Assembly (NCBI GenBank): GCA_038874475.1
Contig: JAVZCJ010000002.1
Location: 138,964-202,963, forward strand
Direction of reading: 5' to 3'
Length of the DNA: 64,000 nucleotides
DNA from: Nitrososphaerota archaeon
GTDB lineage: Archaea > Thermoproteota > Nitrososphaeria_A > Caldarchaeales > JAVZCJ01
Each line of letters begins with the position of its first letter. Position 1 is the stretch's first letter. Positions 10,164-38,130 of this stretch are shown one piece after another. A program made the position numbers and the translations under genes. The notes below the pieces were generated by a model. It had not been told where the DNA came from. It searched no databases and saw only the letters and a list, made by a program, of their open reading frames with translations.

Positions 10164-10970
10164 TTATTTTATATCATTTATTATTATTTTTAGGATCTTG
10201 TTTTTTACTTCATTTATAGCTTTTATTACAGGTGATGATGGAGAATGATCTATTAAGGGTTTTCTAACAATATCTGCATAAGCTACTTCTTTATCAAATG
10301 GTATAACACCCAATAATGGAATATTAATTTTATTCATTTCTTTTAAAATAAATTCCTCTTCATTTTCATTAGAAACTTTATTTGTTATTGCAAAAATTTT
10401 TTTAATACCTATATCATTTGCCAATTTTTTTATCCTTAAAGCAGTTTCAATAGATTTATAACTTGGCTCAATTACTATAAGCATTATATCTACTCCTTTA
10501 GCTGTTCCACGTGCTAAATGTTCTATGCCAGCTTCCATATCAATAATAACAAATTCTTTTCTTTTAATTAATATATATTGTATCAATGTTCTAAGAAAAG
10601 CATTTTCTGGACATAAGCATCCTTCTCCACCTTTTCTAACAGTACCTATAATTAAAAGAGAAACATTATCTGGTCCAATTATCCCAAACTTATCTACTAT
10701 ATCATCTACTTTTGGATATAATTTAAAAAATCCTGCTAAAGAAGCTTCAGGAGATATGCTTGTTCTTTCTTTTATTAATTCTTCATTTTCAGCTAATGGA
10801 ATAATTTTAGATAATTGTTCTTCATTAAATCCTAAAGAATATCCTAGATTAAGATTTGGATCAGCATCTATAGCTAAAACTTTATAACCATCTCTAGCTA
10901 AAAGTCTTGAAAGAGTAGCAGCTACAAGAGTTTTTCCAACTCCTCCTTTACCAGTTAAAGCTATTTTCAT
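10164..10970 (-). CDS. cooC: CO dehydrogenase maturation ATPase (CooC/AcsF type)
   Basis: This MinD/ParA-type P-loop ATPase has GKGGVGKT at residues 7-14, DADPNLNLG near 35-43 and the CooC signature GEGCLCPENAFLR (CxC, about 113-125). The CxC pair in CooC dimers binds nickel or zinc for insertion into CO dehydrogenase. IDMEAGIEHLARGTAKGVD is the switch region. The ATG at 10970 is chosen because MKIALTGKGG is the family's normal N-terminus. CO dehydrogenase genes are not in this window, but the gene fits an archaeon with the H4MPT methyl branch found further right. Confidence 0.87.
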   Translation of the reverse strand: MKIALTGKGGVGKTLVAATLSRLLARDGYKVLAIDADPNLNLGYSLGFNEEQLSKIIPLAENEELIKERTSISPEASLAGFFKLYPKVDDIVDKFGIIGPDNVSLLIIGTVRKGGEGCLCPENAFLRTLIQYILIKRKEFVIIDMEAGIEHLARGTAKGVDIMLIVIEPSYKSIETALRIKKLANDIGIKKIFAITNKVSNENEEEFILKEMNKINIPLLGVIPFDKEVAYADIVRKPLIDHSPSSPVIKAINEVKNKILKIIINDIK

Positions 10971-11210
10971 ATAAAATCTCTCCATTTTTTAAGAGATATA
11001 GCTATACGTTCTAATTATACTTTTTAGTAATTTTATTTAAGAATAAAAAAGAAATTCCTTTATTTTCAAAAAAAGAGTATTTTTAATTATTTTAGTAATC
11101 AATTTCTCATATTATTGAAAAAATATAATATTAAGAGTTATTTGAATATTACTTAAAAAATTTTTAAATATGTAAGAAAATATTTAATAAATATTTTACC
11201 TCACTTTTTT

Positions 11211-11283
11211 GAGCTCATTAGGGACGCCTATTATTGGTGAAAAAATGGAAGATTTTTTAATTTCTTCCATCCCTAGTGGGCTC
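11211..11283 (+). ncRNA. candidate structured RNA with a three-way junction
   Basis: GAGCTCATTAGGGA (11211-11224) pairs fully with 11270-11283 as 14 RNA base pairs, three of them G-U. Inside, CGCC (11225-11228) pairs with GGTG (11236-11239) around a 7-base loop. TGGAAGA (11246-11252) pairs with TCTTCCA (11263-11269), and six A residues link the two hairpins. A T-run (11287-11294) follows as a terminator-like end, and A/T-rich promoter-like sequence precedes. It may be a small RNA or the leader of the gene at 11362. No known RNA family was recognised. Confidence 0.5.
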
Positions 11284-11361
11284 TAATTTTTTTTATTTCT
11301 TTTAAATATTTAATTAAACTTATTAAAAATAAATTATATTATTTTTGAGGTATATTAAAAA

Positions 11362-12618
11362 ATGAAAATACTGCGTATAGAAAGAACTCTTGCAAATCTT
11401 TTAATTATTAGTTTTACCATTAAATTTATTTTCTTCTTATTTGGTATTGAAGGTATAAGAATAAATTTTCCTCTCTCTATTTTTGAAGCTTGGAGAGATT
11501 ATATTTATGCTTATATTCCTACGGTTCAAGCTTTTAAAAATGGATATTTGCCATATAAAGATTTTTACCATGCATACCCTCCGCTTTTCCTTTATATTTT
11601 AACATTATTTTCTTTTATACCTTGTTTTTGGTCTATAGCTTTACCATTAGTTATATTTGATGCTTTAACACTTATTCCACTTTATTTTATAAGTAATCAT
11701 TTCTTTAGTAGTGATAAAGCCTTTTTTATATCACTTATATTTGCATTAGCTCCGATCAATTTATTTTATATCGATTTCCTTTGGTTAAATCCATCATTAA
11801 CAACATTTTTCTTATTATTATCAATTTATTTCTTCATTAAAGAAAAATATGATATTTCAGCAATTAATTTTGCAATATCTATAGGTTTTAAGCAAACATC
11901 TTTACTAGCTTTACCAATAATGTTATTATTTTTATTAAAGAAAAAATCTTTTAAATATGCTTTAAAATATTTCATAATTGTTTTATCAATTTGCTTTTTA
12001 TTCTCAATCCCTTATATCTTTCTCGAACCTAGGCTTTATCTTTTTTCAATATTTCGGATCCCTTTTAATATTGAAGAATTGCCTAAAAATTATTTTCAAT
12101 TAGGTTTTTTTACAGAGCCTTTTGAATATGATACAATTAATACAGCTACTTTAAAATGGTACGAATTAAAAATGATGAAATATGTTCCGTTTAATGCTCC
12201 AATTAATCTTTTCTTACCTATTTTTATATTTATTTTGCCTGAAAATTTTTCAAATTTATATTTCTCAATCGATTATGTAATGAGATTTTTCTTTTTCATA
12301 ACTTATATTTTGCTTTTATATAATATTCATAAAAAGAAGCAATTTCAAGATAATTTCTTAATTAAAAGTGTTTTGTATAGCTTACTTATTTTCTTCATAT
12401 TTAATCCAATTTATAAATATTATGTTGCAGGAATAACTCCTTTATTAATTTTATTAAATCAAAAAAAGAAAAACTTTGTTATTTTTGAAATTTTCAATAT
12501 AGCTTTAATACTTATTCCAAGAATATTTACTTCGTATCTTTTACTTCTTCTATTTTTATTGCTTCTGAAATTTCAATCAAATAATTTAAATTTAGAAAAA
12601 AGAATTGATAAAAAATGA
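11362..12618 (+). CDS. polytopic membrane protein, GT-C glycosyltransferase-like
   Basis: The 418 residues have ten or more hydrophobic helices and no soluble catalytic domain. The first loop reads AWRDYIYAYIPTVQAF and then YKDFYHAYPPLFLYILTL (about 44-83). The D-x-Y pattern and the YPPL motif are typical of GT-C/DUF2029-like glycosyltransferases that use lipid-linked sugars. The end is polar and lysine-rich. It overlaps the following CofE-like gene by 4 bases (ATGA), so the two act together or are at least co-translated. The specific donor and acceptor cannot be told. Confidence 0.7.
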   Translation: MKILRIERTLANLLIISFTIKFIFFLFGIEGIRINFPLSIFEAWRDYIYAYIPTVQAFKNGYLPYKDFYHAYPPLFLYILTLFSFIPCFWSIALPLVIFDALTLIPLYFISNHFFSSDKAFFISLIFALAPINLFYIDFLWLNPSLTTFFLLLSIYFFIKEKYDISAINFAISIGFKQTSLLALPIMLLFLLKKKSFKYALKYFIIVLSICFLFSIPYIFLEPRLYLFSIFRIPFNIEELPKNYFQLGFFTEPFEYDTINTATLKWYELKMMKYVPFNAPINLFLPIFIFILPENFSNLYFSIDYVMRFFFFITYILLLYNIHKKKQFQDNFLIKSVLYSLLIFFIFNPIYKYYVAGITPLLILLNQKKKNFVIFEIFNIALILIPRIFTSYLLLLLFLLLLKFQSNNLNLEKRIDKK

Positions 12619-13469
12619 AATTTAAAAATTCCTATAAATTCATTAGTATTAATACAAATTATTGGCGTCCAGGAATAAATCTCTTAAAAACTATTATTGA
12701 TAATTTAGATAATAAGCTTTATGATGAAGATATCATAATTTTTTCTGAAAAAGCTCTTTCTATTGCATTAGGTAGAATAATTGATGAAAAGAATATAAAA
12801 CCAAGCTTGTTAGCTAAATTTTTAGCTCGAGTTTGGATGAGAATTGTATGGGGATATTTTTTAAGTATTGTATGTTTTTTAAAAAAGAAGAATATCTTGA
12901 GACTTAGAAATTATCCAATTGAATATGGTGCATATCATAAACAAGTAGCTTTAAGTTATGTAGGTTTTATAGAATCTTTAAGACATTTTTCAGAAGGCGG
13001 AATTGATGCAAGTAATTTACCTTATACATATGTTTCTCTTCCATTAAGGAATCCTGATAAATTAACTAATAAAATTAAAGAAGAAATATTTAAAAAAACT
13101 GGAAAAAATATAGGAGTAATTATTATTGATGGTGATAGCACATTCAATTTTAAAAATTTTTATTTCTCTCCTAGAAAAACTAAAATTAAAAATTTAAAAT
13201 ATTTTACTGGATTTTTTAGTTTTATAATTGGTAGATTTTTCAAATTAGAAAGACATGCAACTCCTTTAGCTATTTCAAATGTAAATTTAGATTTTAATGT
13301 TATTATAAAAATTGTTGATAAAGCTAATAAATTAATGGGTCATGGAGCTGGAGAAACTGTTTGGGATATGGCTAAAAAATTTAAAGTTAAACCATATGAA
13401 ATAACATGGGAAATGCTTGAAAAAGTAAAGCATAAACCAATAATAATATGTAGATTTAAGAGAAAATAA
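12615..13469 (+). CDS. CofE-like (coenzyme F420-0:L-glutamate ligase family) protein, divergent
   Basis: The 284-residue protein retains COG1478 features: DEDIIIFSEKALSIALGRI (about 37-55), EGGIDASNLP (about 117-126; CofE has AGIDxSN), NIGVIIIDGDSTF (about 160-172) and a C-terminal MGHGAGETVWD. It differs from F420 ligases in two hydrophobic insertions (about 75-95 and 195-212) that could contact the membrane, and the GRPFR-type metal/phosphate segment is replaced. Coupling to a GT-C membrane protein suggests a role other than F420 synthesis, perhaps ligating an amino acid to a lipid- or wall-linked acceptor. That is inference. Confidence 0.62.
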   Translation: MKFKNSYKFISINTNYWRPGINLLKTIIDNLDNKLYDEDIIIFSEKALSIALGRIIDEKNIKPSLLAKFLARVWMRIVWGYFLSIVCFLKKKNILRLRNYPIEYGAYHKQVALSYVGFIESLRHFSEGGIDASNLPYTYVSLPLRNPDKLTNKIKEEIFKKTGKNIGVIIIDGDSTFNFKNFYFSPRKTKIKNLKYFTGFFSFIIGRFFKLERHATPLAISNVNLDFNVIIKIVDKANKLMGHGAGETVWDMAKKFKVKPYEITWEMLEKVKHKPIIICRFKRK

Positions 13470-38024: not shown

Positions 38025-38093
38025 TTTAAATCATTAATATAAAAATATTACTTAATGAAAAAGTTTTTCTAAAATAAATTTTTTATAGAAAAG

Positions 38094-38129
38094 TTTATAT
38101 AGCCTAGTGTAGTTGACTACACTAGGCTA
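38094..38129 (+). promoter_or_regulatory. TATA box and perfect palindromic operator of the ECF gene
   Basis: TTTATATA (38094-38101) is followed by a perfect inverted repeat at 38100-38129: TAGCCTAGTGTAGT, two central bases TG, and the exact reverse complement of the first arm. The palindrome ends one base before the ATG at 38131. Transcription should start about 38122-38126, inside the repeat, so a bound repressor would block polymerase. The regulator is not identified. As RNA it could also form a hairpin, but a leaderless start would remove most of it from the transcript. Confidence 0.7.
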
Positions 38130-38130
38130 A

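Follow-up and report, generated by a model that had tools for sequence, protein, structure and literature searches.

The window, a 64,000-nucleotide stretch from a Nitrososphaerota archaeon with a G+C content of 27.6%, contains a gene-free gap of 376 bases (10986-11361) between two oppositely pointing genes. Both genes point away from the gap, which makes it a divergent promoter region, where a shared terminator would not be expected. The original prediction had described a single gene at 11362-13469 to the right of the gap; its GT-C assignment stood, and the stretch was resolved into two genes. The features of the locus are listed below, together with the changes seen in G001, the one same-genus genome in which the element was found.

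10164-10985, minus strand: ParA/CooC-like ATPase gene, bordering the gap on the left
11162-11171, plus strand: TATA-like stretch TTTTTAAATA, a weak candidate promoter read from sequence only; the transcription start would fall near 11190-11197
11197-11203, plus strand: TACCTCA, anti-Shine-Dalgarno strand, complementary to 11346-11352; weakened in G001
11211-11223, plus strand: 5' arm of the closing stem P1 in the predicted fold, GAGCTCATTAGGG; no change in G001
11225-11239, plus strand: hairpin P2, CGCC-TATTATT-GGTG (arms 11225-11228 and 11236-11239); GGCG in G001 (G-U to G-C)
11240-11245, plus strand: A6 junction linker between P2 and P3, its last A able to pair in P3
11245-11270, plus strand: hairpin P3, ATGGAAG-N12-CTTCCAT (arms 11245-11251 and 11264-11270); the same seven pairs in G001, one loop change
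11271-11283, plus strand: 3' arm of P1, CCCTAGTGGGCTC; CCCTAATGAGCTC in G001, where two U-G pairs of the window are U-A
11287-11294, plus strand: T8 run, candidate archaeal U-tract terminator
11346-11352, plus strand: TGAGGTA, Shine-Dalgarno site of the GT-C gene, predicted to be masked by 11197-11203
11362-12618, plus strand: GT-C-like membrane protein gene (ALG3/GT87-like; Pfam ALG3), with its ATG at 11362
12615-13469, plus strand: F420-0 ligase-like gene (PF01996), overlapping the GT-C-like gene

The 73 bases at 11211-11283 were predicted to fold as an RNA three-way junction with a minimum free energy (MFE) of -35.3 kcal/mol, and are followed 3' of P1 by TAA and then T8. The structure, its position, the A6 linker, the T-run and the gene-free gap of the original prediction were all borne out by the sequence and the fold. 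Its closing stem was likewise found, not quite as the fully paired 14-bp stem with three G-U pairs described there: P1 has 13 certain pairs, the fourteenth (A11224-T11270) competing with A11245-T11270 of P3, and only two of the G-U pairs lie in P1 (T11215-G11279, T11218-G11276), the third being in P2 (G11226-T11238).

The fold was far more stable than chance would give, with shuffled sequences averaging -15.4 +/- 2.8 kcal/mol (z -7.0) and none of 200 shuffles reaching as low an energy. It ranked first among 12,784 80-base segments covering both strands of the 64 kb, the runner-up being 7.8 kcal/mol weaker at -27.5. The G+C content was 39.7% in the 73 bases compared to 12.9% before and 6.4% after them, and the tRNAs of the same genome have 58-73%. 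The same bases folded on the minus strand to -23.1 kcal/mol compared to -35.3 on the plus strand, the difference arising because each G-U becomes A-C there. This much weaker minus-strand fold in the window favours an RNA made from the plus strand, on modest evidence. A stable plus-strand structure beyond chance, as looked for in an independent archaeal small RNA, was therefore present at the locus. Elsewhere in the window, a long, perfect 13-bp hairpin at 38090-38130 (AGCCTAGTGTAGT ... ACTACACTAGGCT), in a 106-base intergenic gap and with TTTATATA before it, ranks second in stability among the intergenic folds (about -26 to -27 kcal/mol).

In G001 the element occupies the equivalent position, flanked by the same genes, and is 94.5% identical over 73 bases. 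Three of the four differences from the window fall in stems and one in the P3 loop; the stem differences interchange U-G and U-A twice (P1) and G-U and G-C once (P2), and all 24 pairs hold in both sequences. Across the two sequences this amounts to no two-sided change, three one-sided changes that preserve pairing and none that breaks it. When four random substitutions were introduced with the observed transition bias, the fold was as good as that of the real partner in 5.8% of cases from G001 towards the window and in 2.9% in the other direction. The conservation rests on two sequences about 94% alike, and the compensatory changes sought by the original prediction were not seen between them. 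The 134 bases upstream of the RNA were 97.0% identical, compared to 94.5% for the RNA itself. The original interpretation was supported in part, by a fold far beyond chance, its retention in a relative that shares the gene order, the uniformly pairing-preserving changes, the favoured plus strand and the lack of an Rfam match. The T-run of G001 reads T6, then T7. As a separate observation, the upstream stretch (window 11061-11194) has about 13% G+C and no long ORF, its 97% identity being on a par with that of the adjoining ATPase gene.

No family reached its gathering threshold in a covariance search of the window against Rfam 15, in agreement with the description of the RNA as undescribed; RNase P RNA of the same genome scored above the cut-off of the archaeal model, identifying the genome as archaeal. 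The best sub-threshold match, SpF39_sRNA (RF02434; E 0.53, 25.4 bits against a cut-off of 60), shares an AT-rich hairpin match and nothing meaningful with the candidate, and differs in lying on the minus strand, in having no three-way junction and in being streptococcal. ARAGORN found no tRNA or tmRNA in the window. There was no Rfam guide-RNA match, and by reading there were no RUGAUGA/CUGA boxes of C/D guide RNAs and no ACA of the H/ACA type after the closing stem (UAAUUUU). A covariance model built from the two sequences (window and G001) matched nothing besides these two in 44 genomes of the order and class, and gave only apparent chance matches (E 0.002-0.08) in 398 genomes of the phylum, so that the wider archaeal search proposed at the outset yielded no homologue outside the genus. 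The two best extra-genus matches (L062, L063) lie inside an RNA polymerase subunit D-like gene and the third lies within a gene and lacks most of the closing stem; the other three, scoring no higher than a search of that size would be expected to give, were taken as chance on score alone. A second match in the own genome (22 bits) falls inside a transporter permease gene. Homologues of the flanking genes in the order are all distant, so synteny cannot extend the search there. As far as can be searched, the RNA candidate appears restricted to one genus.

Our leading reading, to which we give a probability of roughly 45%, is that the locus encodes a small, genus-restricted, structured RNA that is free and made from the plus strand. 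The transcript would be about 90-100 nt long, beginning some 15-20 bases ahead of 11211 and finishing within the T8 run (11287-11294). Its two ends would be held together by the closing stem of 13-14 bp, which lies directly before the U-tract, and its body would be stable. The 5' end would be short, unpaired and pyrimidine-rich (UUUUACCUCACUUUUUU) and would carry the anti-Shine-Dalgarno word, with which the RNA could base-pair close to start sites, either in cis or in trans. Evidence from the TATA-like promoter is weak, since such words are common at 27.6% G+C and the upstream regions of tRNAs gave no usable motif (a promoter model from 26 such regions showed no clear one). Archaeal intergenic small RNAs are independent transcripts with U-rich 3' ends. 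The candidate resembles them, in general features and not by sequence comparison, in being short, structured and intergenic with a 3' U-tract; it differs in having no Rfam sequence or covariance match, in its confinement to one genus and in being a putative transcript. The U8 tract right after the closing stem counts for a free RNA, as termination in archaea relies on U-tracts and usually needs no hairpin (PMC8716108). The persistence of the RNA in G001 despite a truncated GT-C gene counts for it too. Counted against it were the use of two similar sequences, the lack of a double compensatory change, the more conserved 134 bases upstream and the lack of an extra-genus homologue.

The element occupies the same place in both genus members, and the adjoining GT-C gene is a remnant in one of them. 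That gene in G001 is a deletion remnant with an in-frame stop and about 970 bp missing (window 11550-12522), although the deletion may be an assembly error. The G001 locus (C27; L028, reverse complement about 747-950) retains an N-terminal part of the GT-C gene and a short remnant of its C-terminal end, with the RNA and the F420-ligase-like gene intact.

A cis-acting 5' leader of the GT-C/F420-ligase-like gene pair is a possible, if doubtful, alternative. The three-way junction would then be a domain that senses a ligand, a protein or temperature, and either the TACCTCA/TGAGGTA helix would keep translation off pending a rearrangement of the leader or the U8 tract would act as an attenuator. 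The GT-C gene has a good Shine-Dalgarno site and starts 68 bases past the T-run, and the MFE structure of 11193-11391 contains a 7-bp anti-Shine-Dalgarno:Shine-Dalgarno helix (P about 0.64) that encloses the junction. When the upstream gap was shuffled by dinucleotides, only 3% of the shuffles contained ACCTC; the match was, however, noticed after the fact. In G001 one change in the anti-Shine-Dalgarno strand gives G-U, one pair is lost and the helix is absent from the predicted fold, which decay of a leader after gene loss would explain and chance would explain equally. A U8 tract between junction and gene would also normally terminate transcription. The link to the GT-C gene made in the original prediction is weakened because that gene is truncated in the relative, the junction being kept beside a deletion remnant. 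The link is not disproved, since the F420-ligase-like gene too lies downstream of the RNA and an anti-Shine-Dalgarno helix occurs in the window.

Translation-masking riboswitches and leaders include the three-way-junction purine riboswitch leaders. The candidate is like them in placing a three-way junction before a gene, with an anti-Shine-Dalgarno strand that in the window could mask the Shine-Dalgarno site. It is unlike them in having no Rfam match, no demonstrable conserved ligand core, a U8 tract between junction and gene and a masking helix that is weakened in G001. We consider it quite unlikely that the junction and the strand masking the start of the GT-C glycosyltransferase make up a lineage-specific translational riboswitch or thermosensor, which would be a new archaeal RNA regulator.

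Improbable, too, is an element acting as DNA, in which the inverted repeat would be a protein-binding site or cruciform in the divergent promoter, or a mobile-element relic, and the RNA fold a by-product. Its position between divergent genes would suit such an element, as would the outer arms in G001, which form a perfect DNA inverted repeat. In the window, however, the breaks in symmetry fall precisely at positions that still pair in RNA as G-U, and two extra nested hairpins are unexpected in a binding site. Its own genome carries a single copy of the element, a point against a mobile repeat; a degenerate core DNA pattern had no matches in IMG/VR, and phage and plasmid scans gave none to the element. 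Clostridial matches to the core pattern in GTDB contigs proved to be a different TTTCGCCC...GGGCGAAA hairpin. A hairpin with the core TTTCGCCCATTAGGGACGCCC(T)nGGGCGAAA was seen in three Clostridia or Bacillota MAGs (L068 4422-4456; L069 61-95; L070 at 1341 and about 7300, hence twice in one) and is possibly a dispersed repeat. Scarcely credible is translation of the locus as a small ORF or leader peptide, MEDFLISSIPSGL (ATG 11245 to TAA 11286), whose frame is open from TTG 11209 and ends just past the stem and whose ATG has an SD-like GGTG five bases upstream, as each of the three G001 changes within its 13 codons is an amino-acid replacement (S to P, S to N, G to E) and the SD-like word becomes GGCG with every base pair kept. 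The probability left after these readings belongs to the absence of any function.

The locus is best described as a strongly structured, plus-strand-biased and undescribed new RNA candidate of one genus, for which roles as a small RNA or a gene leader are plausible but unproven. Structured regulatory RNAs of uncultivated archaea are poorly catalogued, and the present locus provides a strong single candidate whose fold and strand are defined and whose ends can be tested, for now an orphan of one genus. Because the neighbouring gene is truncated in the sister species, the choice between a free RNA and a leader is directly testable.
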